DNA of 64,000 bases, from the NCBI GenBank assembly GCA_011390155.1, contig JAABSW010000001.1:122953-186952 (forward strand), given 5' to 3'. Shown here piece after piece: positions 5,428-58,773 of this stretch (the first letter of the stretch is position 1; the number at the start of each line of letters is the position of its first letter). The stretch comes from Clostridiaceae bacterium (GTDB lineage: Bacteria > Bacillota > Clostridia > Peptostreptococcales > Tindalliaceae). The notes beneath the pieces are model-generated. The model was not told the DNA's origin and did not search any database. It saw nothing but the letters and a program-made list of their open reading frames with translations. A program made the translations under genes and the position numbers.

Positions 5428-5493
5428 AGCGAAATGTTGAATAGAAAATGAACAGTAGCATAAAGACTGATGAAAAGATAGGAGTGATGCACA

Positions 5494-8433: not shown

Positions 8434-8489
8434 CCCTGTGATTTACTGCAGTTATGAATCAGTAGATAATAAGTGGAAAGGAGCGTATC

Positions 8490-39994: not shown

Positions 39995-40062
39995 AGTATG
40001 AAAGAATATTGAAGCTGAGTCATATGAAGATAAAGTGCATATTAACATCAAGGAGGGATCAT

Positions 40063-41718
40063 ATGCGAAGAAGTAATGGCATTTCCATAGAGGATGTTTT
40101 GAAAATGGATTGCATGAAAAAGTGTAAACTCATTGCAGGTTTTGGAGGTGTTCGAAACACTGTTTCTAATGTAAACATTATGGCAGATCCAGACATCTTA
40201 AACTGGGTAGAAGCTGGTGAGTTATTGTTGACCACCGCTTATTCCTTCAAACAGGATGAAATAGAGGAACAGAAACGCCTTGTTAGTAAATCGGCGGAAA
40301 TGGGACTTGCGGGCATAGGTATTAAATTGCAACCCTACCTTAAAAATCTGCATCCGGAAATTATTGAGATGGCAAACAGTAAAAATTTTCCGATTATTGA
40401 GCTCCATGATTCAATGCCATTTTCTGAGATCATGACGCCAATATTTCAGGAAATATTTAATAAACAAGCCTCGCTGTTAAAAAGAATAGAAAAGATTCAC
40501 GAACAACTGATGAATGTAATGCTGGAGGGCGGCGGGATCCGGGAAGTACTGCATGTTGTATCTGAAAACATTCAAAATCCTGTGTTGGTAAGCATGATGG
40601 AGACAGATGAAACCCTTGTTGAGTTCGAACAGGTATCTGATGAAATGCGCCGGCTTCTCATGGAAAATGCGCAGCGTTTTTTGAAACAGGCTAAGCGAAA
40701 AGGAGAAGAAAACCGATTTATAGAATCCGAGGTTTCATTGGAAAACAAGCAAATACGCAGAATGATTATGCCACTGTTGGTTAAAAATCAGGTAGCAGGT
40801 TATTTAATGGCTTGGTCCGTTGAAACACCATTAGGTGGGTTTGACTTATCTGTGATTGAATCTGCTTCTACAACCATGGCGTTGGAAATATTGAGACAAA
40901 TGTCCGTTCGAGATGTTGAAAACCGTTATCGGGCAGAATTCTTTGAAGATCTGATTTCGATGGATGAAAAAAGAAAAGAAAAAGCACTGGAAAAAGCAGG
41001 GCGATTTAAGCTCAACAGGAACGATTATTATATAGTAGTTGTGTTACAATTAGTTCGGTTAGAAGCTGATCTGTCTGATAATCTTATCCATAAAATGAAT
41101 TGGTTGACCAGAGAAACTGAACTGTTTGTTCGAGACCATTTTGTTCAAACGCTGTTAGTGGGAAAAACGGACAGCCTTCACATTCTCTTCTCCGATTCCG
41201 GAGAAGAGAATGTGAAGGAGATTGTGGATATATTTGGGCAGTATATGAACCTAAAAAAACATGATTACCCGGTTGGAATAGATTTTAGAATAGGAATTGG
41301 GCGCTGTTACACAGATCTTCAGAATGCAGGGGAAAGCTATGTTGATGCCATCAGGGCCATTCAGCATGGCCCCTTGGTTGAAGAACACGAACTGGCCTAC
41401 TTTGAGCGGTTGGGTATTTATAAAATTTTATGTCAGCCTTCACTTCAGGATGAATTGCTTAAATTCTACAAGGGCACAATACAGCCACTTGTTGAATACG
41501 ATGAAAAAAAATCCACTGAGTTGGTTAGAACCCTTGAGTGTTACTATGAACAAAGCGGAAATCTGAGAAAAACAGCTGACTCACTTTTCACTCACTACAA
41601 CACCACTCTATACAGAATGGAAAGCATCCAACGAATAACAGGTATGCAGTTGAGCAATCATAAGGACAGATTGAACCTGGAAGTGGCCCTTAAGATTAAG
41701 AAATTACTCCATAAATAA
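40063..41718 (+). CDS. pucR: PucR-family purine catabolism regulator
   Basis: A 551-residue transcription factor. The N-terminal PucR domain (about 5-125) is followed by a central CdaR/GGDEF-like region (about 150-430). A C-terminal helix-turn-helix of the PucR type (about 480-545) has LRKTADSLFTHYNTTLYRMESI. Family members sense purine breakdown intermediates and activate ureide or purine catabolic genes. ATG 40063 is chosen for its AGGAGGG. It lies between a purine permease and the BMC purine operon, their likely targets. Codons near residues 372-386 form a perfect 20-bp hairpin. Confidence 0.9.
   Translation: MRRSNGISIEDVLKMDCMKKCKLIAGFGGVRNTVSNVNIMADPDILNWVEAGELLLTTAYSFKQDEIEEQKRLVSKSAEMGLAGIGIKLQPYLKNLHPEIIEMANSKNFPIIELHDSMPFSEIMTPIFQEIFNKQASLLKRIEKIHEQLMNVMLEGGGIREVLHVVSENIQNPVLVSMMETDETLVEFEQVSDEMRRLLMENAQRFLKQAKRKGEENRFIESEVSLENKQIRRMIMPLLVKNQVAGYLMAWSVETPLGGFDLSVIESASTTMALEILRQMSVRDVENRYRAEFFEDLISMDEKRKEKALEKAGRFKLNRNDYYIVVVLQLVRLEADLSDNLIHKMNWLTRETELFVRDHFVQTLLVGKTDSLHILFSDSGEENVKEIVDIFGQYMNLKKHDYPVGIDFRIGIGRCYTDLQNAGESYVDAIRAIQHGPLVEEHELAYFERLGIYKILCQPSLQDELLKFYKGTIQPLVEYDEKKSTELVRTLECYYEQSGNLRKTADSLFTHYNTTLYRMESIQRITGMQLSNHKDRLNLEVALKIKKLLHK
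41175..41218. repeat. Perfect 20-bp inverted repeat inside pucR
   Basis: Left arm 41175-41194 begins CCTTCACATTC. The right arm 41199-41218 is its exact reverse complement, and the loop is ATTC. The hairpin lies wholly inside coding sequence and keeps the frame open. Confidence 0.95.
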
Positions 41719-41770: not shown

Positions 41771-42463
41771 TTAATCTTCTAAAAGAGCTACCGCTCTTAT
41801 AGGTGAACCGGAACCATCCCTGATACGTAAGGGCAACCCCATGTACAAGAAGCGCCGATTAACAACAAGGTTGAGGTTGCATAGGTTTTCGGTGTTTGTT
41901 ATGTCATATTCACCACACACCAAGTGCCCTGAAAAATCAATGTCTTCCGGATGATCTATGGCAGGTGCATCAACGCCGATGTTGACAACACCCTGATCAG
42001 CAAGCCATTTGGCACCGTCATAACTTAAACCGCTGTAGGTGGTCTGCCACTGGTCAGTTCCAAAATGGCGGTCAAAATGCCCAGTATACAGCAAAACAAT
42101 ATCTCCAGCATGAAGACTTTGTCCTGATTTTCTGACTGCCTCCTGCAAATCGCGAGGTTCTATGCGCCGACTGGGTGGAATATGAGAAACATCAATGCAA
42201 ATTGCACTGCCCCAAAAATGTGTCATGGGCATTTTATCAATGGTTGCCCCTTCTGGCTTGTATTCCCATACCGCATCGGAGTGAGTGCCTCCGTGTTCGC
42301 TGATTAACAGATTTCGGGCTGAGAAACCAACTTTTTGACTGCCGGTAGCCTCTTTATTTGATTCATGGGTCATGTTCGTCATAATAAAGGTGGGTTGATG
42401 CATGGGAAAAACAGACATGCCTTGAAAAATTTCCTGGGAAAGATCAATTAAGCGAAGCGCCAT
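41771..42463 (-). CDS. Cyclase-family (KynB-like) metal-dependent amide hydrolase; candidate 4-imidazolonase
   Basis: A 230-residue protein of the cyclase/kynurenine formamidase fold. The metal-binding motif EHGGTHSDAVWEY lies near residues 52-64, a variant of HxGTHxDxPxH. DIVLLYTGHFDRHFG lies near residue 113 and NIGVDAPAIDHPED near 160. Family enzymes hydrolyse amide or cyclic amide C-N bonds. ATG 42463 follows AGGAGG. It is divergent from the BMC operon and shares its control region. In the proposed xanthine pathway the unassigned step is opening of 4-imidazolone to formiminoglycine, which fits this chemistry. That role is inference. Confidence 0.85.
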   Translation of the reverse strand: MALRLIDLSQEIFQGMSVFPMHQPTFIMTNMTHESNKEATGSQKVGFSARNLLISEHGGTHSDAVWEYKPEGATIDKMPMTHFWGSAICIDVSHIPPSRRIEPRDLQEAVRKSGQSLHAGDIVLLYTGHFDRHFGTDQWQTTYSGLSYDGAKWLADQGVVNIGVDAPAIDHPEDIDFSGHLVCGEYDITNTENLCNLNLVVNRRFLYMGLPLRIRDGSGSPIRAVALLED

Positions 42464-42824
42464 TGTTATACCTCCTTGGAATAATCGTTCTAATGAGTGC
42501 TGCTTACAAACAGTATACACGCAGGACTAGTAAAGTACAACTAAGACTAAACCATGGCCAGAGTCTGTGAATGTTGATCAAATCCATGCGTCATTTATTG
42601 GAACTTGGCATAAATTCATGAATGTAAGCAGAACCATAGTTCCGACAGACAACGCTAAACAGCAAAAATATGTAAGTAAATTACAAAATGATAACGTTAT
42701 CATTGTTATTTGTTAGAATAATTTCGTTAATAATTAATAAAGGAATTTTCCTTAATCTGTTGAAAAATAGAACTAAGCAACAGAAATGGTATGCAGAAGT
42801 GGTATAGATGAAGGAGGCGGTTTG
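42464..42824. promoter_or_regulatory. Divergent control region of the BMC purine operon
   Basis: About 360 bases without a gene. It contains the 18-base perfect palindrome at 42688-42705 and a small AAGGAA/TTCCTT inverted repeat near 42741. Its right half is very AT-rich. I see no riboswitch-like conserved core and could not fix a convincing -35/-10 pair. Confidence 0.5.
42688..42705. promoter_or_regulatory. 18-base perfect palindrome, cre/LacI-type operator
   Basis: AATGATAACGTTATCATT. Its core TGATAACGTTATCA matches the cre consensus at 13 of 14 positions and has the central CG typical of LacI/CcpA-family operators. It lies about 120 bases before the second formiminotransferase gene, which opens the BMC operon. 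Confidence 0.6.
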
Positions 42825-43733
42825 ATGTCTATTGAAAAAAAATATGTGTTAGCTGTTCCAAATTTTAGTGACGGCAGAAGAAAAGAGGTAATCGAAGCAG
42901 TGGCGGGCACCTTGAAGAACAAAGAAGGTGTGATGTTGGTAAGTGTTGAACCAGAGCATGATTTTAATCGAACAGTCATCACTGTGATTGGCGAACCTGT
43001 TCCCCTAAAGGAAGCGCTGTTGGAAATGGCAGGCAAGAGTTATGAACTTATCAACATGGAAGAACAACAGGGTAGTCACCCGCGCATTGGAGCCCAGGAT
43101 ACTATTCCCCTCTTCCCCTTTAAGAATATCACACTGGAAGAATGTGTAACCATGGCAGAAGAAATAGGACAGGAAGTATTCGATCGTTACGATGTACCTG
43201 TTTTTTTCTCTGGTGGAAATGCCAGGAACGAAGACCGAAAGGCCTTGTCATTTATTCGAAAGGGTCAGTACGAAGGTCTTAAAGAGGTGGCCCACACCGA
43301 TGAAAGAAAGCCTGACCTTGGCCCAGCTGCTTTGCATCCAACGGCTGGCGCTACAATTGTAAGTGCCGATGTTGAAGGTTTGACAGCTTACAATGTATTT
43401 TTAGCAACAGAAGATGTGTCCATTGCAAAGGCCATTGCAAAAGGTGTTCGAGGCCCAAGCGGCGGATTTTCAACTGTTCGGGCGGTAGGCATCAAATTTC
43501 CTGAACATGCAGGTGTTGTGGTCTCCATGAATATGTTTGACTGCAGTGTAACACCATTATACAGAACCTTTAATTTTGTGAAACAAGAGGCTGCAAGGTA
43601 TGGTGTTGCGGTGACAGGGTCGGAAATTGTCGGACCTGTTAAACTGGACCATTTATTAAATTCCCTTGAATTTTTCCTGGGATTGGAAGGATTCAGGAAA
43701 GAACAAATTCTTGAAACCCACCTGATGAAGTAA
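42825..43733 (+). CDS. Formimidoyltransferase; candidate glycine formimidoyltransferase
   Basis: A 302-residue paralogue of the hut formiminotransferase at 7540, again without a cyclodeaminase domain. HPRIGAQDTIPLF lies near residues 85-97, HPTAGATIVSAD near 173 and VSMNMFDC near 231. In the presumed substrate loop it reads GGFSTVRAVG, where the hut enzyme has GGLRFCKGIG. ATG 42825 follows AAGGAGG. It opens the BMC operon. The expected reaction is N-formiminoglycine plus THF to glycine plus 5-formimino-THF (EC 2.1.2.4), the last step of clostridial purine fermentation. Family membership is clear; glycine specificity is inferred. Confidence 0.88.
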   Translation: MSIEKKYVLAVPNFSDGRRKEVIEAVAGTLKNKEGVMLVSVEPEHDFNRTVITVIGEPVPLKEALLEMAGKSYELINMEEQQGSHPRIGAQDTIPLFPFKNITLEECVTMAEEIGQEVFDRYDVPVFFSGGNARNEDRKALSFIRKGQYEGLKEVAHTDERKPDLGPAALHPTAGATIVSADVEGLTAYNVFLATEDVSIAKAIAKGVRGPSGGFSTVRAVGIKFPEHAGVVVSMNMFDCSVTPLYRTFNFVKQEAARYGVAVTGSEIVGPVKLDHLLNSLEFFLGLEGFRKEQILETHLMK

Positions 43734-43812
43734 GCGGCGCAAAGACCAAATGCTGGCAATGCTTATGATGTATGTATAACCAGATCAGTATACTATGATA
43801 GGAGGAGAAAAG

Positions 43813-45261
43813 ATGAAAGTAGATGTTGTTGTTAAGAATGCACGAATCCCTCAGGGAGATGACACAGTATTAACAAACATCCTTGTAAAGGATGAAAAAG
43901 TGGCGGGTTTTGTGACTGAGCTAGACGGTGTTGAATATGAGAGAGAAATCGACGCCAAAGGACATTTAACCATTCCAGGTTGTTTTGATTCCCACACCCA
44001 TTTTATGGACCCCGGTTTTGAGCACAGGGAAAACTTTTTAACAGGCACCCAGTCTGCAGCAGCCGGCGGATTAACCACCATCATGGATATGCCTTGTTGT
44101 TCAAAACCATCAGTAAGAAGTATTCCTGAGTTAGAGAGCAAATTAAATAGAATCAAAGACAAAGCCGTGATTGACTTTGCCTTCTGGGGTGGTGTCACTG
44201 GTGAAGATATTCGTGATGGAAAGTATGACATTGTCAAAGAACAGGCTGACTACGGTGTGTGTGCGTTTAAAGTTTACATGACACCATCTGTGCCCACTTA
44301 TGAAAGAGTAACAGACCCAGAAATGCTGGAAGCCTTTAAACTTGTTGCTGAAACCGGGCTGGTTGTAGGTATTCATGCTGAAAATTATGCCATGTGCGAC
44401 TATTATGTGAAAAAATTTGAAGCTGAAGGCCGCACGGATGGACCAGCATGGGCAGAAGCCAGGTTAGAACTGGCAGAGAAGGCTGCCATTCAGCTGGGAA
44501 TCAGTTTTGCAGAAGAAACAGGAGCTCGTTTACACATTGTACACATGAGTACAGGTATTGGTGCAAAACTTGTTGGAGAGGCTAAAAAGAAAGGTTTGGA
44601 TGTTACTTCTGAGACATGCCCGCATTACCTGATGCTTAACTACCAGGACGCAATGACTGAACACAAACAGTTTGCTAAGATTGCACCGCCACTAAGAACA
44701 ACAAAGGACAATGAAGAGTTATGGGAAGGACTTCGAAATGGAAGTGTTGATTTTATGGGTACAGACCATGCGCCTTATGAAATCGCCACTGAAAAAGAAG
44801 GTAAAGTAGGCGACTTAGAACTTGATATTTGGTCTGCGTTCCCAGGGATTCCAGGAGTTGAAACCCTTGTGCCGATTATGGTAAGTGAAGGTTATAATAA
44901 AGGACGAATTTCCCTTAGCCGAATGGTAGAAGTGTTGAGTACCAACGCTGCAAAGCAATATGGTATTTATCCCAAAAAAGGTGCAATGCACATTGGTTCA
45001 GACGCTGACTTCACGATCATTGATTTGGATAAAGAATGGACCATCGACCAAAAGAAAACCTACTCCATGGCTAAGTACAACCCGCTACACGGCATAAAAT
45101 TGAAAGGAAAGCCTGTTAAGACCGTTGTTCGTGGCACGGTGGTGTATGATGATGATAAAGGCGTTGTTGGCCAACCTGGATTCGGTCAGTTTGTTAAGCG
45201 ACAAAGTATCCAGAAACTGGATCGCACCATTACTTTTACAGGCGTGGATTTCCGCTCATAG
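43813..45261 (+). CDS. Dihydropyrimidinase/allantoinase-like amidohydrolase; candidate xanthine amidohydrolase
   Basis: A 482-residue cyclic amidohydrolase. Metal ligands are visible: DSHTHF near residue 59, the carboxylated-lysine position in CAFKVYMTP near 153, GIHAEN near 190, LHIVHMSTG near 245 and GTDHAPY near 317. Relatives open hydantoins, dihydropyrimidines and allantoin. ATG 43813 follows GGAGGAGA; no other plausible start lies upstream. Between a formiminotransferase and a cysteine hydrolase, it is the best candidate for hydrolytic opening of the xanthine pyrimidine ring to 4-ureido-5-imidazolecarboxylate. Allantoinase is the alternative, but no uricase, allantoate or ureidoglycolate gene is present. 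Confidence 0.87.
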   Translation: MKVDVVVKNARIPQGDDTVLTNILVKDEKVAGFVTELDGVEYEREIDAKGHLTIPGCFDSHTHFMDPGFEHRENFLTGTQSAAAGGLTTIMDMPCCSKPSVRSIPELESKLNRIKDKAVIDFAFWGGVTGEDIRDGKYDIVKEQADYGVCAFKVYMTPSVPTYERVTDPEMLEAFKLVAETGLVVGIHAENYAMCDYYVKKFEAEGRTDGPAWAEARLELAEKAAIQLGISFAEETGARLHIVHMSTGIGAKLVGEAKKKGLDVTSETCPHYLMLNYQDAMTEHKQFAKIAPPLRTTKDNEELWEGLRNGSVDFMGTDHAPYEIATEKEGKVGDLELDIWSAFPGIPGVETLVPIMVSEGYNKGRISLSRMVEVLSTNAAKQYGIYPKKGAMHIGSDADFTIIDLDKEWTIDQKKTYSMAKYNPLHGIKLKGKPVKTVVRGTVVYDDDKGVVGQPGFGQFVKRQSIQKLDRTITFTGVDFRS

Positions 45262-45330: not shown

Positions 45331-45933
45331 ATGCCAAGACATGCGATTTTAGTGATTGATATGTTGAATGACTTTATTGGAGAAAAGGCTTCACTGAGAT
45401 GCCCGGGTGGAGATGACATCATCGAACCTTTGCAGAAACTGTTTAAATGGGTGCGGGAACGTGAGGGTGATGACATTCATTTAGTGCACATTCAGGAAGC
45501 TCACCGCAAGCATGATGCAGATTTTCGGGTTCGTCCCAGACATGCTGTTGATGGTACCTGGGGCTCAGATTTCATACCTGAACTCTATCCAGAAGGTGAT
45601 GAATACATTATTAAAAAGAGAAGACACAGTGGATTTGCTCACACAGATCTGGACCTGTATTTAAAAGAGGAAAACATTGACACTGTCGTAGTCACAGGTG
45701 TTTGGACCAACGTTTGCGTTAGAAGCACTGCCACCGACGCCCTGGCCAATGCTTATAAAGTCATTACCCTTAGTGATGGTTGCGCTTCAAAAACCCAGGC
45801 CATGCACGAACATGGTTTGGTTGACCTCAGTATTTTTACCAAGGTAATGGAACTTGATGAATATATTGATGCCTGGGAAAAAGGCGAAGACCCTTGGTTG
45901 GGTGGCGGAGACGCGGAAAATAAAGTAGAATAG
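45331..45933 (+). CDS. Isochorismatase-family cysteine hydrolase; candidate ureido-imidazolecarboxylate amidohydrolase
   Basis: A 200-residue hydrolase with the Asp-Lys-Cys catalytic triad: Asp in LVIDMLNDF near residue 10, Lys in YIIKKRRHSGF near 93, and Cys in TGVWTNVCVRSTATDA near 131. Relatives such as N-carbamoylsarcosine, ureidoacrylate and biuret hydrolases remove carbamoyl groups from ureido compounds. That is the chemistry needed to convert 4-ureido-5-imidazolecarboxylate to 4-amino-5-imidazolecarboxylate, CO2 and NH3. It follows the amidohydrolase by 70 bases with a good AAGGAGGAG. The specific substrate is inferred. Confidence 0.87.
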   Translation: MPRHAILVIDMLNDFIGEKASLRCPGGDDIIEPLQKLFKWVREREGDDIHLVHIQEAHRKHDADFRVRPRHAVDGTWGSDFIPELYPEGDEYIIKKRRHSGFAHTDLDLYLKEENIDTVVVTGVWTNVCVRSTATDALANAYKVITLSDGCASKTQAMHEHGLVDLSIFTKVMELDEYIDAWEKGEDPWLGGGDAENKVE

Positions 45934-46033: not shown

Positions 46034-46591
46034 ATGAAAATCATTGTAGGGGTATCAGGAGGAAGTTGCGCCATCTATGGTGTTGCACTCTTGCAGGTAT
46101 TGAAGCAACTTAACATTGAGACTCACTTAGTGGTCTCTACCATGGGAGAATATGTAGTACAGCATGAATGCGGCATGAACCTGGAAGAGTTAAGTGATTT
46201 AGCCTCGGTTACTCACAACAATAAAGACCTTGCCGCACCTATATCCAGTGGATCTTTTAAAACAGACGGAATGATCATCATTCCCTGTTCTATGCGAACC
46301 TTGGCTGCAGTAGCCAATGGCGTATCAGATAATTTACTGACCCGTGCTGCAGATGTGGTCATCAAAGAAAAAAGAAAACTGGTGATGGTAGCCAGAGAAA
46401 CACCGCTGAGCATAATACACCTTGAGAATATGTTAAAGCTGGCAAAAATGGGTGTTACCATTATGCCTGCCTCGCCAGGTTTTTATCATCATCCTGAAAC
46501 CATGGAAGATATCATTTCAATTATGGTGGGCCGTTCACTGGATCAGCTTGGTATTGATCATCAGCTTTTTAAACCTTGGGGTACTGTGTGA
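46034..46591 (+). CDS. ubiX: UbiX-family flavin prenyltransferase
   Basis: A 185-residue flavoprotein that makes prenylated FMN from FMN and dimethylallyl phosphate for a UbiD-type decarboxylase. It has IIVGVSGGSCAIYG at residues 3-16 (a variant of GASGA), the IIIPCSMRTLAAVANGVSDN block near residue 84, and KRKLVMVARETPLS near residue 115, as in UbiX. ATG 46034 follows GAGGTGG. It directly precedes ubiD, so its product is probably dedicated to that enzyme. Confidence 0.92.
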   Translation: MKIIVGVSGGSCAIYGVALLQVLKQLNIETHLVVSTMGEYVVQHECGMNLEELSDLASVTHNNKDLAAPISSGSFKTDGMIIIPCSMRTLAAVANGVSDNLLTRAADVVIKEKRKLVMVARETPLSIIHLENMLKLAKMGVTIMPASPGFYHHPETMEDIISIMVGRSLDQLGIDHQLFKPWGTV

Positions 46592-46627
46592 GAAGTTTAG
46601 TTTGTGAGATAATTCGTGCTCATCCTA

Positions 46628-46636
46628 TGGTATAAT
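46628..46636 (+). promoter_or_regulatory. Extended -10 promoter element before ubiD
   Basis: TGGTATAAT is a perfect extended -10 (TGnTATAAT) in the short ubiX-ubiD gap. No good -35 is seen at 17 bases. It could give extra transcription of ubiD and the shell genes. Confidence 0.5.
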
Positions 46637-46686
46637 GAGGCATGTGTATTCATCGCATTTCATCTTTCATGGAAAGGAGGGACTCT

Positions 46687-48045
46687 GTGGAAAAACAAAT
46701 GCTTCGGGCAACGCTTAATGCGCTGAAAAATAAAGGAAATCTTAAAACATGCGATGTTGAAGTTGACCCTGTGTATGAACTGGGAGCTGTGCTAAAACAT
46801 TATAGTAATGAAGTGCCTGTTATATTTGAAAAAGTGAAAGGTCACCGTATGCCAGTGGCAGGAGCACTCTTTGGTGATCGAGAAATCTATTACGATGTAA
46901 TGGGTATGACGAAAGAAGACAGGTTGTTTCAGATGATGGCGGCAGTGGCGAATCCTCAGCCGACAAAGCTCTTAAACAAAGGACCTGTTACTGAAAACAT
47001 TGTCACAAGTCGTATTGATTTGCAGCGCATGTTTCCAATTCCTAAATTTCATGAATTGGATTCTTCAACTTACATCACCTCAGGTATTGTTGTGTTGAAG
47101 GACCCAGAGACAAAAAAGACACATATTTCCGTGAGACGCCTTCAAATCAATGGTGGTAATGAAATCAGTGTGCTGGCAGCTTCACCGCTGGCGCAACAGC
47201 AATACAGCGAGATGGAAGAGTTGAACAAACCACTTGAAATTGCTGTTGTATTGGGCTATGACCATAGCCTGCTGCTGGCGTCACAGATAAGCAGCGCTAT
47301 CTATGGAGTTGATAAATATCAGGTAGACAGTGCTTTGCGGGGAGAACCTCTTGAACTGGTTAAATGTACCAGTGTTGACTTGGAAGTGCCCGCATATGCT
47401 GAAATTGTTTTGGAGGGAATTATGCCCCCTCACAAGCGTAAAGTAGAAGGACCTTTTGGTGAATTGATGGGATACTATGGTGGAGTGGCGCCCCATCCCA
47501 TCGCAGAAATCAAAACTGTCATGCACCGTAATAATCCTATTTTTCAGGTTGCATTTCCATGTAGAGAAGAACACTTATCCAATGGGTTAATCAGGGAAAT
47601 GGAGTTATATGGTGCCTTGAAAAACATTGTGGATGTGGTAGACGTGAATGTAACGGTATCGGGGGGATGCAGGTTCCATGCTGTGGTATCCATCAGACAA
47701 AAATCACAGGGACAGGCGAAAAGTGCCATCATAACAGCGCTTGGAAATAATAAGGATTTGAAACATGTGGTCATCGTTGATGATGATGTGGATATCTACA
47801 GTCATGATGAGGTGGAATGGGCTATTGCCACGCGTTTCCAGGCTGGCCAGGACCTGGTGGTCATACCGGGTGCTGTGGGATCTGTACTGGATCCATCCAA
47901 TGGTTTGCGGGGCGTAACGGACAAAATGGGTTTGGATGCAACAAGACCCACAGGTGAACAGGGAGAGAAGTTTTACAAGGCAGTGATCCCGGGATACAAA
48001 AAAGTAAGTATTGATCGGTATTTTCCAAACAAGGATAAAAAGTAA
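46687..48045 (+). CDS. ubiD: UbiD-family prFMN decarboxylase; candidate 4-amino-5-imidazolecarboxylate decarboxylase
   Basis: A 452-residue UbiD-family enzyme. The conserved EGPFGELMGYYGG near residue 252 supplies the two catalytic glutamates. The catalytic Arg is probably in SVRRLQINGGNEIS near residue 142. GTG 46687 follows AAGGAGG; upstream in-frame codons lack a Shine-Dalgarno. UbiD enzymes decarboxylate unsaturated or (hetero)aromatic acids using the UbiX product. Between the ureido hydrolase and the shell genes, the natural substrate is 4-amino-5-imidazolecarboxylate, giving 4-aminoimidazole. Family assignment is firm; substrate inferred. Confidence 0.9.
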   Translation: MEKQMLRATLNALKNKGNLKTCDVEVDPVYELGAVLKHYSNEVPVIFEKVKGHRMPVAGALFGDREIYYDVMGMTKEDRLFQMMAAVANPQPTKLLNKGPVTENIVTSRIDLQRMFPIPKFHELDSSTYITSGIVVLKDPETKKTHISVRRLQINGGNEISVLAASPLAQQQYSEMEELNKPLEIAVVLGYDHSLLLASQISSAIYGVDKYQVDSALRGEPLELVKCTSVDLEVPAYAEIVLEGIMPPHKRKVEGPFGELMGYYGGVAPHPIAEIKTVMHRNNPIFQVAFPCREEHLSNGLIREMELYGALKNIVDVVDVNVTVSGGCRFHAVVSIRQKSQGQAKSAIITALGNNKDLKHVVIVDDDVDIYSHDEVEWAIATRFQAGQDLVVIPGAVGSVLDPSNGLRGVTDKMGLDATRPTGEQGEKFYKAVIPGYKKVSIDRYFPNKDKK

Positions 48046-48063: not shown

Positions 48064-48327
48064 ATGCAAGCAATCGGATTTGTAGAAACAAGAAGCCTGG
48101 TAGCTGCGATACAGGCCGCTGATACCATGGTGAAGTCGGCTAACGTTAAAATTATTGATTTCAATTATGTTGGCTCAGGTATTGTGGCAGTCATTATCGA
48201 AGGTGAGGTCGCCGCTGTTCAGGCTGCTGTGGATCATGGTCGTCTTGAAGCGGAAAAATTGGCGGAAATCATATCTGTTAATGTCATTGCAAGACCTCAT
48301 GAAGAGCTGGAAGCGTTAATGGAATAA
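48064..48327 (+). CDS. BMC-H shell protein (hexamer), VGSG pore
   Basis: An 87-residue single-domain microcompartment shell protein of the PduA/EutM/CcmK class. It opens with AIGFVETRSLVAAIQAAD, has the conserved lysine at residue 24 and ends in the typical VIARPHEELE. The central pore loop is VGSG at residues 36-39, close to the common GSG of metabolite-permeable pores. It is the first of three BMC-H genes, 18 bases after ubiD, and is probably translated from GGATGGTGATC. Confidence 0.95.
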   Translation: MQAIGFVETRSLVAAIQAADTMVKSANVKIIDFNYVGSGIVAVIIEGEVAAVQAAVDHGRLEAEKLAEIISVNVIARPHEELEALME

Positions 48328-48646: not shown

Positions 48647-49012
48647 ATGAGATCAGCAGTAGGATTGATGGAAGCCATCGGATTAACATCAGCTATGGCA
48701 GCTTTGGATGCAGCCTGTAAAGCTGCAGAAGTTACCTTGGTGGGGCTTGAAAAAGTCATCGGCGCAGGTAAGGCTGTAACAGTAACAGTCCATATTGCAG
48801 GTGAGGTTGCAGCTGTGCAGGCAGGCGTTGATGCAGGGGTAGCGGCTGCATCAAAATCTGGGAGAATTTTAGCGTACCATGTGATACCAAGACCCCATGA
48901 AGAAGTGGAAAAATTGATTCAATCCTTTAAGAAGGATCAGTCAACAAACGCAGGTAAAAAGCAAAACAAACCTAAATCATCAACACAGGGTAAGAGTTCA
49001 AAAGAAAAATAG
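48647..49012 (+). CDS. BMC-H shell protein with basic C-terminal tail, IGAG pore
   Basis: A 121-residue shell protein. Residues 1-92 form a BMC domain (AVGLMEAIGLTSAMAALDAA, conserved Lys25, VIPRPHEEVEKL). The pore loop is IGAG at residues 38-41. A 29-residue Lys/Ser/Gln-rich tail follows, probably disordered, and could contact cargo or another shell face. The first helix carries an extra Ala/Leu-rich face (AALDAACKAA) relative to its neighbours. GGGAGGTG precedes the ATG. Confidence 0.93.
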   Translation: MRSAVGLMEAIGLTSAMAALDAACKAAEVTLVGLEKVIGAGKAVTVTVHIAGEVAAVQAGVDAGVAAASKSGRILAYHVIPRPHEEVEKLIQSFKKDQSTNAGKKQNKPKSSTQGKSSKEK

Positions 49013-49040: not shown

Positions 49041-49319
49041 ATGAGTCAAGCATTAGGATTAGTTGAAACAAAAGGTTTAGTAGGTGCCATTGAAGCGGCC
49101 GATGCCATGGTTAAGGCGGCAAGTGTTACCATCGAGGGGTACGAAAAAATTGGTTTTGGTTTAGTAACCGTAATGGTTCGAGGTGATGTAGGTGCTGTCA
49201 AAGCAGCCACTGACGCAGGTGCTGAAGCAGCACGAGCAGTAGGCGAACTGCATTCTGTACACGTCATTCCTCGTCCTCACGCAGAAGTTGAGCGGGTTAT
49301 TTTAAACAAAACTGAGTAA
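49041..49319 (+). CDS. BMC-H shell protein, IGFG pore
   Basis: A 92-residue canonical BMC-H protein ([24 protein letters not shown], then [12 protein letters not shown]). The pore loop is IGFG at residues 37-40, so a bulky aromatic residue lines the pore, unlike the other two paralogues. Strong AAAGGAGG precedes the ATG; it may be the major shell component. The three genes thus offer three different pore chemistries. Confidence 0.95.
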
Positions 49320-49362
49320 ACGATCTGGTTGATCAGCAGTCTAGGTCTGGAGGGAGTTGCGT

Positions 49363-50151
49363 ATGAATCAATCGAATCAGACCCGGCAAATATTGGCTCA
49401 TTTATCAGCGCAGGTGGGAAGTTTGCCTGGTGAAAAGGTTCCGGACAGAAATCCATCAAAGGGTCCTTCGATGCTGGTTTTGTTTGCAGGTAATCCCATT
49501 GGTCTTAATGAAACATTACACGATTTGGCAGTGCTGAAAAAAGCCGGTTGGTGTTTCGATTTGGCTTTTTCTGCCAATGCTGAAGCATTGATGAACACTG
49601 ACATGATCATGAGTCAGTTAAATCCCAGGCAGTTCATAGAACGGGACATGAACCAGCTGAAGAGGTACACAATGGGACATCTAAATTGTGTCATTGCACC
49701 GATGATTACACATAATACCGCAAGAAAGTTGGTTATGGGAATCCAGGACGGCCTGATTCCAAATTTGCTTTGGCAGGCCCTTTGGGACGGCATCCCAGTA
49801 TATATGGACATGGAGAGTCTTCGCACCTACCATGGCAGACCAACATTAAACCCACATTTGAATCGATTCATGGAAGAAACCATAAGCCAGTTATTAAAGT
49901 TGGGCGTTAAAAACATGGTGCGACCGACTGAGTTAATGACCGAAGGATTACGAGAAAATTACACAAATAAGTCTGATGTCATGGTTGGTGGTGGCAATGC
50001 GGATCGTGACATAAAAAAAGTCATCACCGAAAAAGATATTCTGGCGTTATCGCTTCATGAGTCTGTATTGAACATACCACAAGGATCTATTGTTACGCCT
50101 TTAGCGAGAGACACCGCTGTTGCCCGTGGAATAAAATTTCACTGGAAATAG
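49363..50151 (+). CDS. BMC-associated flavoprotein-fold protein with putative encapsulation peptide
   Basis: A 262-residue protein. Residues 5-22 form an amphipathic helix (NQTRQILAHLSAQVGSL), followed by a Pro/Gly-rich linker (about 23-36), the usual layout of encapsulation peptides. Residues about 37-190 resemble the flavoprotein/UbiX-like fold (MLVLFAGNPIG, then NTARKLVMGIQDGLIPNLL). The C-terminus ends in NIPQGSIVTPLARDTA, a motif I recall from other BMC-associated proteins. ATG 49363 is chosen over TTG 49357, which abuts GGAGGGAG. Likely luminal cargo; reaction unknown. Confidence 0.7.
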   Translation: MNQSNQTRQILAHLSAQVGSLPGEKVPDRNPSKGPSMLVLFAGNPIGLNETLHDLAVLKKAGWCFDLAFSANAEALMNTDMIMSQLNPRQFIERDMNQLKRYTMGHLNCVIAPMITHNTARKLVMGIQDGLIPNLLWQALWDGIPVYMDMESLRTYHGRPTLNPHLNRFMEETISQLLKLGVKNMVRPTELMTEGLRENYTNKSDVMVGGGNADRDIKKVITEKDILALSLHESVLNIPQGSIVTPLARDTAVARGIKFHWK

Positions 50152-50178
50152 CCGGGCAATTGGCAGGGAGAGATGAAT

Positions 50179-50445
50179 ATGCGCATTGGAAAAATTATTG
50201 GAACAGTCACTGCAACTCGAAAGGATGAACGCCTTGTCGGGTTTAAACTGCTTTTAACGCAACCCTATGTTAATGGACAGGCAAAAGGAGAACCACTGGT
50301 TGCTGTTGATACTGTTGGCGCTGGTATAGGCGAAATCGTGCTTTATGCAACAGGAAGTGCGTCACGACATGCAGCTAACAAACCGCAATCTCCTATTGAT
50401 GCCTCAATTGTTGGGATTATTGATTCCATTGATGTGGCAGACTGA
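50179..50445 (+). CDS. BMC-P vertex protein (EutN/CcmL family)
   Basis: An 88-residue pentameric shell protein that caps the vertices of the compartment. It shows the family N-terminus MRIGKIIGTVTATRKDE, LLLTQPYVNG near residue 26, and VAVDTVGAGIGEIVLYATGSASR near 42-64. ATG 50179 has better spacing from GGGAG than ATG 50173. Together with three BMC-H genes it makes a minimal but complete shell set; no BMC-T gene is present in the window. Confidence 0.95.
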   Translation: MRIGKIIGTVTATRKDERLVGFKLLLTQPYVNGQAKGEPLVAVDTVGAGIGEIVLYATGSASRHAANKPQSPIDASIVGIIDSIDVAD

Positions 50446-50473: not shown

Positions 50474-52285
50474 ATGAGTGCTAAATGGATGAAACAAGCA
50501 ATGGAATATCGTCAGTTGGTTGATGTGTTAATGTCGGACCGTGACCATGCAGACATTGTGTTGCATGGTGGTCAGGTGGTGAATGTCCTCACAGCAGAGA
50601 TCTACCAAGCTGATGTTGCCATTAAAGGTAAGTACATTTTGTTGGTGGGTGATGCAGCCTCCCTGATTGGACCAAATACTATTACGGTGGATGTTAGAGG
50701 GAAGACATTGTCTCCGGGGTTTATGGATTCACATATGCATTTTGAAAGCAGTATGTTGACGATCACGGAATTTTCACGATTGTCAATTCCATCAGGTACA
50801 ACTACGCTGATTGCTGATCCTCATGAAATTGGGAATGCCTTGGGCCCTGTTGGAATGAAAGCCATGGCTGAAGAAGCTAGTTTGGTTCCCAATCATGTAA
50901 GTCTGGTGGTGCCATCACTGACACCGGACTGTCCCGGTTTGGAAACAGCAGGCTACGATGTAAGTTCGAAGGATATGGAAGAGCTGCTTCATTATCCTAA
51001 CGTAATTGGTATTGGAGAGCTTCAGGGTTTTAGTAATGCTGCTCATGTGTATCGAAATACACCGGACATTGTGACTGACCTGCTGGCTTCTTCAACCTAC
51101 GCCAGGAGTATAGGTAAAATCGTAGATGGTAATGCGCCGGATCTCTTTGGGGCAGAATTGGCTGCACATATTATTGCAGCAGGTGGTATATGTTCTTGCC
51201 ATGAGACCACCACAAAAGAAGAATGTGTGGAAAAACTTCGACAAGGTGTTTATGTTTTCATGCGTGAAGGATCAACCCAGCGTAATATGGCCGAATGCAT
51301 TCGGGCAGTAACGGAGGATAAGCTGGACTCAAGGCGTTGTATCCTTGCAACAGATGATATGGTAGCAGAAGACCTGGAAAAACTTGGACACATGAATGAA
51401 ATTGTAAAAAGAACCATTGCGGAAGGCGTAGATCCGGCAATAGCGATTCAAATGGTTACAATTAACCCTGCAACCTATTTTGGTTTTCAGGACAGAGGAG
51501 TTTTATCACCTGGAATGTTGGCTGACATAGCTGTCATTGGTGATTTGAATGATATGACCGTAGAGGCAGTTTTTCTGGAAGGTAAACTTGTGGCGTCCCA
51601 GGGAGAGTTGTTGATTGAACTTCCGGAATACACTTATCCGGAAACGGTTAAAAATTCTGTCAAGAGAAAACCATTAATCGAAGATGACTTAGCCATTGGG
51701 AGTGCAAACCAGGACGCAACTGTACGTTGTATTGGATTGATACCTGATCAGAACTTATCTGAGTCTATGGAATTTACTGTAAGAGCGCAACAAGGCGTTG
51801 TACTTCCCGATGTGAAGCAAGATGTGCTGGAAATTGCTTGCATCGAACGATATGGTCGAAACGGAAGTATAGGCAAGGCATTTGTTCAGGGCTTTGGTCT
51901 TGAACAGGGGGCTTTTGCTGAGAGTGTTGCCCATGACACCCATAATATTATGGTCGTGGGTACAAGCTTGAAAGACATGGTAACAGCAGTGAATCATGTG
52001 ATTGAGATGGGGGGCGGTATAGCAGTAGTGAAGAACAGCAGGGTGATTGATGACATGCGGTTGCCGGTGGGAGGATTGATCACCGACGAACTGAATGCTC
52101 ATGAAGTCAGTCAGAAGATTGCCTCATTGGAGAAAACAGTGAAAGATCAATTAGGCTGTAAAGTGCATGCGCCGTTTATGCATCTTTCGTTTTTGGCCTT
52201 GTCCACCAGTCCAAAGTGGAAGATTACAGACCAGGGTCTAGTTGATGTAAACAACTTCACAATTTTACCTCCAGTGGTGGAGTAA
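50474..52285 (+). CDS. Adenine-deaminase-like amidohydrolase, divergent; candidate 4-aminoimidazole deaminase
   Basis: A 603-residue member of the adenine deaminase (AdeC/Ade) family. It has the metal motif DSHMHFESSML near residue 85, the family hallmark IADPHEIGN near 111, SCHETT near residue 235, LATDDM near 290 and a C-terminal half with HDTHNIMVVGT. It is about 25 residues longer than the canonical paralogue at 58763 and differs at many aligned positions (for example GEGSTQRN-like REGSTQRN against REGSAAMN). It sits directly after the shell genes rather than with the purine funnel genes. I infer deamination of 4-aminoimidazole to 4-imidazolone (EC 3.5.4.8). Plain adenine deamination is the alternative. 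Confidence 0.87.
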   Translation: MSAKWMKQAMEYRQLVDVLMSDRDHADIVLHGGQVVNVLTAEIYQADVAIKGKYILLVGDAASLIGPNTITVDVRGKTLSPGFMDSHMHFESSMLTITEFSRLSIPSGTTTLIADPHEIGNALGPVGMKAMAEEASLVPNHVSLVVPSLTPDCPGLETAGYDVSSKDMEELLHYPNVIGIGELQGFSNAAHVYRNTPDIVTDLLASSTYARSIGKIVDGNAPDLFGAELAAHIIAAGGICSCHETTTKEECVEKLRQGVYVFMREGSTQRNMAECIRAVTEDKLDSRRCILATDDMVAEDLEKLGHMNEIVKRTIAEGVDPAIAIQMVTINPATYFGFQDRGVLSPGMLADIAVIGDLNDMTVEAVFLEGKLVASQGELLIELPEYTYPETVKNSVKRKPLIEDDLAIGSANQDATVRCIGLIPDQNLSESMEFTVRAQQGVVLPDVKQDVLEIACIERYGRNGSIGKAFVQGFGLEQGAFAESVAHDTHNIMVVGTSLKDMVTAVNHVIEMGGGIAVVKNSRVIDDMRLPVGGLITDELNAHEVSQKIASLEKTVKDQLGCKVHAPFMHLSFLALSTSPKWKITDQGLVDVNNFTILPPVVE

Positions 52286-52315: not shown

Positions 52316-53626
52316 GTGAGCACAAATGAAGGTTTTTTGGAAAAGAGATTTAAACTGAAAGAACATGGAACTGACACGAAAACTGAAGTGCTGGCGGGAA
52401 TCACCACGTTTATGACAATGGCTTATATATTAATTGTAAACCCATTGATTTTATCAGATGCAGGCATGGATTTTGGAGCTGTATTCACCGCTACTGCAGT
52501 CTCATCTATTATTGCAACACTGGTCATGGCCTTTTATGCTAATTATCCATTTGCGCTTGCTCCAGGTATGGGATTAAATGCATTCTTTGCGTATGGCATT
52601 GTACTGGGTATGGGATACTCCTGGCAGATGGCATTGGCAGCCGTGTTTATTGAAGGTTTGATTTTCATTGCCTTAACACTGCTAAATGTACGGGAAGCCA
52701 TCGTTAAAGCAATCCCCATGAATCTGAAGCATGCTGTTTCAGTGGGTATAGGATTATTTATTGCCTTTATTGGTTTTAGCAACGCCGGAGTGATTGTAGC
52801 AGATCCGGCCACCACAGTAGCCCTGGGCGATATGACTTCTCCTGGCGCTATCATTGCATTGCTTGGTTTGGTCATCACAGGCATTTTGCTTGCCAAAGGG
52901 ATCAGGGGCGCACTGCTTATTGGAATCTTTATTACAACCATCATAGGTATTCCCTTAGGACTAACACAACTCCCAGCTTCCATTATTTCTGCTCCACCGT
53001 CATTATCACCGATCCTCTTTCAATTCGATTTTTCAAGGGTTTTCTCATTGGACATGGTGATCATTCTCTTTACCTTGTTGTTTGTCGACATGTTTGATAC
53101 CATTGGCACACTGGTTGGTGTAGCTGACAAAGCAGACATGTTGGATGAAAGCGGCAACCTACCCAAAGCAAAGCAGGCTCTCTTTGCAGATGCTGTCGGT
53201 ACAACAGCGGGTGCCTGTCTTGGAACCAGTACTGTTACCACTTATGTCGAAAGTGCTGCTGGTGTGGCCGAAGGTGGACGTACAGGTTTGACGGCACTGT
53301 CAACAGCAGGTATGTTTGTAATCGCACTATTATTATCACCGCTGTTTATCATGATTCCTGGAGCAGCCACAGCACCTGCGTTGGTATTGGTGGGACTCTT
53401 CATGATGACACCGATTAAGAAACTGAACTTTGATGATTACACTGAGTCGATTCCGGCCTTCCTGACCATCATTATGATGCCTTTGACTTACAGTATCGCA
53501 GAAGGTATTGTCTTCGGTATGGTTTCCTACACAGCCTTGAAAATATTAACCGGGAAACTGAAAGATGTATCTATCATTATGATTATATTATCTGTTTTAT
53601 TTATTTTAAAATTCATCGTGGGATAA
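52316..53626 (+). CDS. NCS2/AzgA-type purine permease (adenine/guanine/hypoxanthine)
   Basis: A 436-residue membrane protein with about 12-14 spans, of the PbuG/AzgA type. The N-terminus has TEVLAGITTFMTMAYILIVNP near residues 22-42, then ALAPGMGLNAFFAYGI near 82, and DMFDTIGTLVGVADKA near 255, all diagnostic. The start is GTG 52316, after AAGGAGG. It lies between the BMC operon and the deaminase/hydroxylase operon, supplying purine bases to both. Confidence 0.93.
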   Translation: MSTNEGFLEKRFKLKEHGTDTKTEVLAGITTFMTMAYILIVNPLILSDAGMDFGAVFTATAVSSIIATLVMAFYANYPFALAPGMGLNAFFAYGIVLGMGYSWQMALAAVFIEGLIFIALTLLNVREAIVKAIPMNLKHAVSVGIGLFIAFIGFSNAGVIVADPATTVALGDMTSPGAIIALLGLVITGILLAKGIRGALLIGIFITTIIGIPLGLTQLPASIISAPPSLSPILFQFDFSRVFSLDMVIILFTLLFVDMFDTIGTLVGVADKADMLDESGNLPKAKQALFADAVGTTAGACLGTSTVTTYVESAAGVAEGGRTGLTALSTAGMFVIALLLSPLFIMIPGAATAPALVLVGLFMMTPIKKLNFDDYTESIPAFLTIIMMPLTYSIAEGIVFGMVSYTALKILTGKLKDVSIIMIILSVLFILKFIVG

Positions 53627-53788: not shown

Positions 53789-55126
53789 ATGAAACGACTG
53801 TTGATAAAAAATGGGCAGTTAGTCACAATGAATCGCAAACGAGATGTTTTTAGGGGCGATTTGTTAATTGAAGGTAATCGCATTTCATCCATAGCACCTG
53901 AAATCAAAGCAGAGAATTGCGAAGTGATTGACGCCACTGGCCTGGTTTTGATTCCGGGGCTGATACAAACACATATTCATCTAACACAAACATTGTTACG
54001 AGGCCAGGCGGATGATCTTGAATTACTGGATTGGTTAAAGAAGCGGGTATGGCCGCTAGAGGGTGCTCACACGGCAGAATCCAACTATATCTCTGCAAAA
54101 TTGGGTATAGGTGAACTAATAAGGGGCGGCACCACATCAATTATTGACATGGAAACAGTGCATCATACAGACGCAGCCTTTGAAGCGTTGCAGGAAACAG
54201 GCTATCGCGCCATTTCAGGTAAATGTATGATGGATTATGGAAACAGCGTGCCTGCATCACTAATGGAAGAAACCCAGGAATCAATCGCAGAAAGTGTGAA
54301 GCTGCTGAAAAAATGGCATGGTGCCGCCAATGGACGCATTGAGTACGCTTTTGCGCCGCGTTTTGTGGTTTCCTGCACAGACCAGCTCTTGAAGCGGGTG
54401 AAAGAGCTTTCTACTGAGTACGGTGTGAAGGTTCACACTCATGCTTCTGAAAATCGGGGAGAAATTGAACTGGTACAAAAGGACAGAGGCATGCGGAACA
54501 TCAATTACCTTCATAAACTTGGTTTAACAGGAGAAAATCTTGTGTTGGCCCACTGTATTTGGCTGGATGACGAAGAAATGAACATCCTGGCAGACACAGG
54601 CACTCACATAGCACACTGCCCGTCAAGTAACATGAAATTGGCATCTGGTATTGCAAAAATACCAGAGCTGTTGGAGATGGGTGCACAAGTATCGCTAGCA
54701 GCTGATGGAGCACCTTGTAACAATAACATGGATATGTTCAGGGAAATGCGTCATGCAGCCCTCATACAGAAGGCTAGGTTATTGAGTCCGACAACCATGC
54801 CGGCAGCCACGGTATTTGAAATGGCAACCTTGGGTGGAGCAAAAGCCATGGGCAAAGAAAATGATCTTGGCAGCCTGGAAGTGGGAAAATTGGCAGACAT
54901 GGTACTAGTGAACCTTGGCGTTCCTCATAATGCACCATGGGAAGCTGGTGATATCGTGTCTCAATTGGTTTATTCAGCAACCTCAGCTGATGTTCACACT
55001 ACCATCATCGACGGTTACGTTGTCATGAAAAACCGTAAATTGACGACCATTGATGAAGATGCAGTCTTAAAAGACGCTAATCGAGTGATCAAGGAACAGA
55101 TCATAAAAGCTGGGGTCATTAAGTAA
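53789..55126 (+). CDS. Amidohydrolase (SsnA/guanine deaminase-like)
   Basis: A 445-residue metal-dependent deaminase of the COG0402 group. It has QTHIHLTQTLLRG at about residues 62-74, VHTHASEN near 216, VLAHCIWLDDEEM near 252, AHCPSSNMKLASG near 280 and SLAADGAPCNNNMDMF near 306. These fit guanine deaminase, SsnA and 5-deoxyadenosine/MTA deaminases alike. Its place before a molybdenum hydroxylase and an adenine deaminase favours guanine to xanthine. AAAGGGG precedes the ATG. The exact substrate is inferred. Confidence 0.85.
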   Translation: MKRLLIKNGQLVTMNRKRDVFRGDLLIEGNRISSIAPEIKAENCEVIDATGLVLIPGLIQTHIHLTQTLLRGQADDLELLDWLKKRVWPLEGAHTAESNYISAKLGIGELIRGGTTSIIDMETVHHTDAAFEALQETGYRAISGKCMMDYGNSVPASLMEETQESIAESVKLLKKWHGAANGRIEYAFAPRFVVSCTDQLLKRVKELSTEYGVKVHTHASENRGEIELVQKDRGMRNINYLHKLGLTGENLVLAHCIWLDDEEMNILADTGTHIAHCPSSNMKLASGIAKIPELLEMGAQVSLAADGAPCNNNMDMFREMRHAALIQKARLLSPTTMPAATVFEMATLGGAKAMGKENDLGSLEVGKLADMVLVNLGVPHNAPWEAGDIVSQLVYSATSADVHTTIIDGYVVMKNRKLTTIDEDAVLKDANRVIKEQIIKAGVIK

Positions 55127-55135
55127 CAGGGAAGG

Positions 55136-56020
55136 ATGAGGGATTTGGTACAAAATGTGTATCAGGCGAAGGACACAGAAACAGCACTCAATTTACTAAA
55201 TCAACATCAAAGTGAAGCTAAAATATTGGCTGGGGGAACTGACCTTATTATTCAAATGAGGGAAGGGAATGTATCACCACCAGTGCTCATCGATATTTCA
55301 TCAATACACGAAACAAGAGAAATAAAGGAGCAAAGCAATACCATTGAGCTGGGAAGTACCGCCACCTTTACAGACATCGAGAAACATATATTATTCAATC
55401 ACTGTTTATCCGCTATTGCCAAGGCGGCCAGGTCGATTGGTTCCCCTCAAATCAGGAACCGAGCAACCGTTGGTGGTAATCTTTGCAATGCTTCACCCGC
55501 TGCAGACATGTTGCCTCCTCTGTTGGCGATGGATGCCATGGTGGTACTGAAGAGCAAACATCAAACGAGGGTACTGCCATTATCAGAATTTGTCACTGGA
55601 AAAGAGCAAACCCTTTTACAGGTGGACGAGCTTCTTGAAAAGATCAGGTTTCAAAATCTCACATCCAATGAGGGATTGGGCTTTTCTAAACTAGGCATTA
55701 GAAATGCACTGGCCATTGCACGACTGTCAATGGCAGTTTACTTAGAATGGGATGAAAACCATATGTGTAAAAACGTACGAATTGCCAGTGGTGCTTTAGG
55801 GCTTAATGCACAACGAGAATGGGATGTGGAAAGGTTCATGAAAGGAAAGCACCTGAATAACAGCTTATTTGCCGAAGTGGCAGCGCTGTTGGAAGAAAGC
55901 ACTATGAAACGATTGGCCGGCAGAAATACGATGAATTTTAAGCGTTATGCTGTACAGGGTGTGTTTAAACAAGCTCTGGACGAGGCTCTGGAGGGCATGG
56001 ATAGGAGGAAAGATTCATGA
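55136..56020 (+). CDS. xdhB: Molybdenum hydroxylase FAD-binding subunit
   Basis: A 294-residue FAD subunit of a xanthine-dehydrogenase-type enzyme. The FAD-binding segment AKILAGGTDLIIQMREG lies near residues 28-44, and GSPQIRNRATVGGNLCNASPAADM near 101-124 holds the second FAD motif. The C-terminal part is the CO-dehydrogenase flavoprotein C-domain. It follows the deaminase by nine bases and overlaps the 2Fe-2S subunit start by four bases (ATGA), so the subunits are translationally coupled. Confidence 0.93.
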   Translation: MRDLVQNVYQAKDTETALNLLNQHQSEAKILAGGTDLIIQMREGNVSPPVLIDISSIHETREIKEQSNTIELGSTATFTDIEKHILFNHCLSAIAKAARSIGSPQIRNRATVGGNLCNASPAADMLPPLLAMDAMVVLKSKHQTRVLPLSEFVTGKEQTLLQVDELLEKIRFQNLTSNEGLGFSKLGIRNALAIARLSMAVYLEWDENHMCKNVRIASGALGLNAQREWDVERFMKGKHLNNSLFAEVAALLEESTMKRLAGRNTMNFKRYAVQGVFKQALDEALEGMDRRKDS

Positions 56021-56526
56021 AAAAAGCAGTTTTTAATGTAAACAACAAAGAGTACATGGTTGAGATAGAAGAAGACCTGAGGTTATTGGACCTGATTCGC
56101 AACACGCTTAATTTAACAGGCACAAAAGAAGGCTGCGGTGAAGGAGAATGTGGTGCCTGCACGGTGTTGATGGATGGAGAAGTTGTGAATTCATGCCTTG
56201 TGCTAGCATTTCAGGCTGAGGGCAAAAAGATAGAAACCATCGAAAACCTTGACCGTGAGGATGGAACACTGCATCCTATCCAGCAGGCTTTTCTAGAAGA
56301 AGGTGCTGTTCAATGTGGCTTTTGCACCCCGGGTATGGTGTTGTCAGCAAAATCACTTTTGGATAAAAACCCTGCACCCAGTAAACATGATATTCGCGAA
56401 TCAATATCAGGTAATTTGTGCCGATGCACAGGGTACAACAAAATCGCTGAGGCAATTGAAAAAGCAGCAGAAACACTGAAAAAGGAGGAATCTGACAGTG
56501 GCACTGCGCGTCGTGGGACAAAATGA
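56017..56526 (+). CDS. xdhC: Molybdenum hydroxylase 2Fe-2S subunit
   Basis: A 169-residue iron-sulfur subunit with both clusters. The plant-ferredoxin-type ligands are in GCGEGECGACTVLMDG near residues 40-55 plus a downstream Cys (NSCLV). The second cluster is in CGFCTPGM near residue 102 and CRCTGYN near 139. The last 29 bases overlap the next gene. The order FAD, Fe-S, Mo is that of many clostridial purine hydroxylases. Confidence 0.95.
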   Translation: MKKAVFNVNNKEYMVEIEEDLRLLDLIRNTLNLTGTKEGCGEGECGACTVLMDGEVVNSCLVLAFQAEGKKIETIENLDREDGTLHPIQQAFLEEGAVQCGFCTPGMVLSAKSLLDKNPAPSKHDIRESISGNLCRCTGYNKIAEAIEKAAETLKKEESDSGTARRGTK

Positions 56527-57769: not shown

Positions 57770-58773
57770 AACAAAGAGGCAAGGGAATCGGCTGTACCTT
57801 TTATGGAACAGGTTATGGAAATGGATTTCCTGATGTTTCAAGAGCCCGGGTTCAGCTTGAGAAAGATGGAGCTGTAACCGTATATGTTGGAGCCACCGAA
57901 GTGGGCCAGGGAGCTAAAACAGTGCTAAGCCAAATTGCCGCGGAAGCCTTGGGTTTGTCCATGGAAGATGTCCGCTTTGTCTGCGAAAACACCGATGAAA
58001 CACCAGATGCCGGCACTGCAGCCGCCAGCCGACAAACCTATAACACAGGGAACGCAGTTAAGAGAACATCTGAGGCGCTGATTCGTGAAATAAAGAACGC
58101 GGTGGCGAATCACTGGCAGAAAGAAGATGTTCAACGCATAAAAGTAGATAGGGGTAAAGTATATCACCCGGATGATCAGGACAAAACCCTTAGTTTCAGG
58201 GAAGTAGCCTTATTGGCCGGAGAATCAAAAATAGTGGGTGAAGACAGCTTTACTGCCATGACCACGCAGCTGGACGATGAAACTGGCCAGGGTAACCCTT
58301 ACTGGCCATACACATTCAATGTATACGGCATCGAAGTGGAAGTTGACACAGACACTGGAAAAGTTGCCATCATCAAGGCAGTATGTGCCCAAGACGTGGG
58401 AAGGGCAGTGAACCCAAAACTCATCGAAGGCCAGATGGATGGAGGTTTTGCCATGGGGCTGGGGTATGCGTTAATGGAAGATATTAATCTTAGCAAAGGA
58501 AAAATGAAGCATGATCGATTTTCAAATTATTTAATCCCCACGGCCATGGACATTCCAGATCTAGAAAAACTCATTATAGAATCACCTGAATCAACAGCCC
58601 CCTATGGGGCTAAGGGAATTGGTGAACCAGTTATGCTAGGGGTGGCACCAGCTGTGCTCAATGCAATTTATGATGCGGTGGGGGTTCGCATGACAACAAT
58701 CCCTGTGACACCCGACAACTTACTGGTTGCCATAAAAGAGATGGATAGGAAGGGGCAACCGCATGAAAAATAA
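57766..58773 (+). CDS. Molybdenum hydroxylase molybdopterin subunit, C-terminal half (split)
   Basis: A 335-residue protein equal to the second half of XdhA. EVGQGAKTVLSQIAAEALG near residue 46 and GTAAASRQTYNTGNAV near 83 bind the cofactor. PYGAKGIGEPVMLGVAPA near 280 carries the catalytic glutamate. It lies in the -1 frame relative to the first half and begins in the ATGA overlap. The end overlaps the adenine deaminase gene by 11 bases. With YqeC and MocA downstream, the enzyme is probably a selenium-dependent purine or xanthine hydroxylase (inference). Confidence 0.9.
   Translation: MKQRGKGIGCTFYGTGYGNGFPDVSRARVQLEKDGAVTVYVGATEVGQGAKTVLSQIAAEALGLSMEDVRFVCENTDETPDAGTAAASRQTYNTGNAVKRTSEALIREIKNAVANHWQKEDVQRIKVDRGKVYHPDDQDKTLSFREVALLAGESKIVGEDSFTAMTTQLDDETGQGNPYWPYTFNVYGIEVEVDTDTGKVAIIKAVCAQDVGRAVNPKLIEGQMDGGFAMGLGYALMEDINLSKGKMKHDRFSNYLIPTAMDIPDLEKLIIESPESTAPYGAKGIGEPVMLGVAPAVLNAIYDAVGVRMTTIPVTPDNLLVAIKEMDRKGQPHEK

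Follow-up and report, generated by a model that had tools for sequence, protein, structure and literature searches.

A gene cluster for xanthine degradation was described by Ravcheev et al. (2019) as the Xau (xanthine utilisation) microcompartment, in which XauD (Amet_4581 of Alkaliphilus metalliredigens), being the sole decarboxylase present, was assigned the decarboxylation step (PMC6620236). According to a 2025 paper, which cites Tong et al. 2023 (PMID 37164019), the xanthinase-pathway gene cluster has recently been identified in both Clostridia and Bacilli (PMC12507026). Beyond the 2019 and 2023 studies, our literature search on prFMN together with the xanthine pathway found nothing. The abstract of the 2023 study reportedly names a decarboxylase dependent on prenyl-FMN alongside four hydrolases, which belong to different families. 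For the decarboxylase analysed here, the nearest relative with a solved structure is HmfF, a furan-2,5-dicarboxylate decarboxylase. A chemical precedent for imidazole acids is provided by HudA (PA0254), a pyrrole-2-carboxylate decarboxylase that binds imidazole, forms a covalent imidazole adduct and slightly decarboxylates imidazole-4-carboxylate, with 1.3% conversion (PMC7976604). HudA is likewise a prFMN decarboxylase of five-membered N-heteroaromatic acids, but within the family it falls on the Fdc1 side, and it is about 25% identical to our UbiD in a structural alignment.

The window, that is, the whole stretch of 64,000 nucleotides analysed here (G000:C1:122953-186952), comes from a 97%-complete draft genome (2.7 Mb, 125 contigs). 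It contains a purine locus (Table 1), in which UbiX and UbiD sit between the isochorismatase-fold ureidohydrolase and three BMC-H genes, just as the sequence-only reading had placed them. A second adenine-deaminase-like ORF closes the row after the xanthine dehydrogenase subunits. The amidohydrolase proposed as xanthinase stays below every equivalog cut-off and matches only the broad pyrC_multi subfamily. The row of cyclase, FTCD, amidohydrolase, amidase, (UbiX) UbiD, shell genes, amidohydrolase and xanthine dehydrogenase follows the order of the Xau locus, and XauD and the window UbiD are predicted to catalyse the same decarboxylation step (PMC6620236). Judged by synteny, the window UbiD is the counterpart of XauD. 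In Alkaliphilus, three loci whose flanks are intact (L003, L004, L013) share the gene order of the window, and the UbiD orthologues from four Alkaliphilus loci other than that of A. metalliredigens are 66-71% identical to the window's. The Xau description differs from ours in that its main text contains no UbiX, UbiD or prenylated flavin, and in that the two ring hydrolases are assigned the opposite way round (PMC6620236). The cluster of Tong et al. 2023 concerns the same pathway and the same taxonomic range (PMC12507026). The sequence-only reading had remarked that a prFMN mechanism for this step would be new to it. Since XauD was given the same step in 2019 (PMC6620236) and a xanthinase cluster was reported in 2023 (cited in PMC12507026), newness is not supported. 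The functional idea is very probably right but already known, and the locus in the window is one more example of a type described before.

Table 1. Coordinates of the purine-locus features in the window
Feature	Position	Strand	Basis or remark
PucR-type purine catabolism regulator	40009..41718	+	PF07905
Putative cyclase; proposed 4-imidazolone hydrolase or other ring hydrolase	41771..42520	-	PF04199, synteny
Formimidoyltransferase, FTCD N-terminal type; proposed formiminoglycine formimidoyltransferase	42786..43733	+	TIGR02024 above cut-off
Dihydropyrimidinase/allantoinase-like amidohydrolase; proposed xanthine amidohydrolase (xanthinase)	43795..45261	+	PF01979, synteny
Isochorismatase-fold amidohydrolase; proposed 4-ureido-5-imidazolecarboxylate hydrolase (ureidohydrolase), supplier of the UbiD substrate	45331..45933	+	PF00857, co-occurrence
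UbiX-type flavin prenyltransferase; proposed to make prFMN from FMNH2 and dimethylallyl phosphate	46034..46591	+	PF02441, NCBIfam
UbiD-type prFMN decarboxylase, XauD-like; proposed 4-amino-5-imidazolecarboxylate decarboxylase	46687..48045	+	GTG start; longer ORF from ATG 46642
BMC-H shell protein	48064..48327	+	PF00936
ORF of 91 residues, no family	48341-48616		between shell genes
BMC-H shell protein with C-terminal extension	48647..49012	+	PF00936
BMC-H shell protein	49041..49319	+	PF00936
BMC-locus flavoprotein, UbiX/EpiD/DmrB fold	49357..50151	+	predicted fold
EutN/CcmL shell vertex protein	50173..50445	+	PF03319
Adenine-deaminase family protein; candidate 4-aminoimidazole deaminase	50474..52285	+	PF13382, synteny
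Purine permease	52316..53626	+	PF00860
Amidohydrolase, 5'-deoxyadenosine deaminase equivalog; position of Ravcheev's XauE	53789..55126	+
Xanthine dehydrogenase subunits: FAD, Fe-S, molybdopterin in two ORFs	55136..58773	+	second molybdopterin ORF from sequence reading

The identity of the two genes is clear. UbiX matches PF02441 with an E-value of 1.8e-48 and scores 255 bits against the NCBIfam model "UbiX family flavin prenyltransferase" (curated cut-off 188). No other UbiX match was found in its own, 97%-complete genome, in agreement with the earlier claim that the prenyltransferase is a dedicated one. UbiD exceeds the cut-offs of all three UbiD domains, PF20695 (N-terminal), PF01977 (Rift-related) and PF20696 (C-terminal), and reaches 326 bits against TIGR00148 "UbiD family decarboxylase" (cut-off 245). 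The EGPFGE motif noticed before was confirmed, as was an intact E-R-E triad (R151, E254 and E259, numbered from the GTG start); the same three residues are kept across the purine-locus UbiD clade described below and in HmfF relatives. The AlphaFold2 model of the window UbiD (mean pLDDT 90.9) can be superimposed on UbiD-family structures with TM-scores of 0.83-0.94, and its best matches in the PDB are HmfF structures (6h6v, TM 0.94, r.m.s.d. 1.6). HmfF was also the best sequence match in a phmmer search of the PDB (E 6e-113). A solved structure from the purine-locus clade was not found.

The UbiX start at ATG 46034 given by the sequence-only reading fits, whereas its UbiD start at ATG 46642 is probably not the true one. 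We prefer GTG 46687, because in orthologues (L005, L011, L013, L040/G269) a stop codon directly precedes the equivalent position and because a GGAGG-type ribosome site, GGAAAGGAGGGA, lies upstream of this GTG. Two other interpretations of this short region were rejected. The in-frame TGA in the UbiD relatives L005 and G269 does not point to selenocysteine, since it precedes the likely start. The 15 extra residues of the longer reading were dismissed as an N-terminal encapsulation peptide, as they lie ahead of the probable GTG start, at a place where orthologues carry a stop codon.

Among the 51 UbiD proteins in a maximum-likelihood tree, all 33 purine-locus UbiDs fall on one side of a single branch with a support of 100/99. 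This clade is sister to a ten-member HmfF clade (support for the pair 99/97). Placement of the window UbiD inside the HmfF clade was rejected, as the two are separate sister clades, each supported at 100/99. In plasmid records, relatives were found at 40% identity or less only. All 33 clade members are located in xanthine-degradation loci. The ureidohydrolase lies immediately upstream of UbiD, directly or with UbiX in between, in 31 of the 33; in the two exceptions, UbiD is at a contig edge (L005) or the hydrolase is about 16 kb away (G604). UbiX adjoins UbiD in 30 members, and a shell gene follows 3' of UbiD in 31. Because the row is conserved in many genera, it is not a product of chance.

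The co-occurrence of the two enzymes was examined in 398 genomes drawn evenly from the phylum, with the ureidohydrolase called at E <= 1e-40. The ten genomes with the ureidohydrolase are exactly the ten with a purine-clade UbiD; they are related organisms spanning seven families and not independent trials. In the nine other genomes with a UbiD match, which is of the HmfF type or another UbiD, the ureidohydrolase is absent. Two genomes of one genus (G551 and G623), 99-100% complete, encode no PF00936 protein anywhere, and they keep the row of amidohydrolase (71-72% identity to the window's), ureidohydrolase (64%) and UbiD (45%), with UbiX elsewhere in the genome. The retention of this row in shell-free genomes indicates that UbiD follows the xanthine pathway and not the shell. 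In G623, the formimidoyltransferase and cyclase lie side by side on another contig. Both shell-free genomes also contain a second pair of amidohydrolase and isochorismatase-fold genes without UbiD (L106, L107). The comparison confirms independently that the anaerobic purine pathway includes the prFMN decarboxylase, also in genomes without a microcompartment. This is relevant to purine breakdown by gut anaerobes and sharpens the question of what the shell is for.

The UbiX-UbiD pair very likely serves as step four of the anaerobic xanthinase pathway, the conversion of 4-amino-5-imidazolecarboxylate to 4-aminoimidazole. The prediction made for the pair as the missing decarboxylase is thus supported in its function, though not in its newness, by the clade, the synteny, the exact co-occurrence with the ureidohydrolase and the persistence in shell-free genomes. 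From these comparisons we infer the following substrate, cofactor state and chemistry. The xanthinase would open the xanthine ring to give 4-ureido-5-imidazolecarboxylate, from which the ureidohydrolase would take off the carbamoyl group, leaving 4-amino-5-imidazolecarboxylate. UbiX would prenylate FMN, and UbiD would oxidise the prenylated flavin to prFMN-iminium. The electron-rich C5 of 4-amino-5-imidazolecarboxylate could then attack C1' of prFMN, upon which CO2 would leave. The carbon would be re-protonated by the catalytic glutamate of UbiD, and 4-aminoimidazole would be released and then deaminated.

Steps three and four might be swapped, with UbiD decarboxylating 4-ureido-5-imidazolecarboxylate before the carbamoyl group is removed. 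The gene context is equal for both orders, and both substrates share the imidazolecarboxylate. Nevertheless, we consider the swapped order very unlikely. In the classical work on clostridial enzymes by Pricer and Rabinowitz (1956), taken up in PMC6620236 and the basis of the order adopted here, ureido hydrolysis comes first and decarboxylation second; a free 4-amino group makes C5 more electron-rich; and the extra xanthinase-ureidohydrolase pairs without an adjoining UbiD in G551 and G623 fit a hydrolase that acts directly on the xanthinase product.

It is still less probable that the substrate of UbiD is an unrelated aromatic or furan acid and that the enzyme is present in the locus by accident. 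Such a reading could draw on the wide substrate variety of the UbiD family and on HmfF, the closest characterised enzyme, which is 43% identical and has the same fold and triad. This level of identity does not fix the substrate of the window UbiD, a limit on the main assignment as well. The sister clades differ in conserved residues near the triad. The purine-locus clade is set apart by F121, S126, R150, S166, K210, G262 and N299, of which R150 adjoins the catalytic R151. Its full support as a separate clade with conserved residues of its own (those listed, leaving aside S126) argues against an unrelated substrate, as does its occurrence strictly alongside the purine pathway in seven families of one sample. 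Unlike the window UbiD locus, the loci of the HmfF clade that were examined lack purine-pathway and Xau shell genes in their vicinity. Class II PurE catalyses the interconversion of AIR and CAIR, which are ribotides of this same substrate-product pair. A PurE-like enzyme could by this analogy decarboxylate the imidazole acid and leave UbiD another role, but the likelihood is slight, because the catabolic locus has no extra AIRC gene, the single copy in the genome lies in the de novo pur operon, followed by purC, purF, purM and purN (names read from the ORFs), and is thus biosynthetic, and every sampled genome with the ureidohydrolase has a purine-clade UbiD.

UbiD has no terminal extension, N- or C-terminal, compared with HmfF or the protein of the shell-free locus L080, and the two hydrolases preceding it have no obvious extension compared with shell-free relatives; the sequences therefore give no sign of which enzymes are cargo. 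The BMC-locus flavoprotein encoded downstream of the BMC-H genes has no Pfam match and matches weakly a general ethanolamine-locus family. It is predicted to adopt a UbiX/EpiD/DmrB-like flavoprotein fold with a separate N-terminal helix, and it carries a strongly conserved C-terminal motif, VITEKDIL...GxIxTPLAKDxA. Because it occurs in most shell-bearing loci and its match to the ethanolamine-locus family is weak, a specific role in prFMN chemistry is speculative. We regard it as unlikely that UbiD works inside the shell and that this protein helps to deliver or mature the prenylated flavin there; if so, the microcompartment would be built around prFMN chemistry.

The 91-residue ORF between the shell genes has a helical-looking N terminus (MANQLAQQMLKNLAEKAG), which could be an encapsulation or scaffold peptide; the ORF is detectable in the near relatives L002 and L040 only. 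In loci from other classes of the phylum (L074-L078, L081), an extra ORF of about 325-345 residues lies between the shell genes. It has weak tandem BMC domains in most of them and represents a shell part absent from the window.

The adenine-deaminase family gene always adjoins the EutN gene in Xau clusters whose contig reaches that far, but the shell-free G623 has no better than a 35% match to its protein. The amidohydrolase at the XauE position has no close relative (>40% identity) in the locus-bearing genomes G141, G064 and G337. The former is our candidate for the 4-aminoimidazole deaminase, and the earlier assignment of this activity to the XauE position may need revision. The window also contains a histidine degradation operon (3901-9761) with histidase, urocanase, a second formimidoyltransferase and imidazolonepropionase, and this formimidoyltransferase is a useful paralogue for comparison with that of the purine locus.
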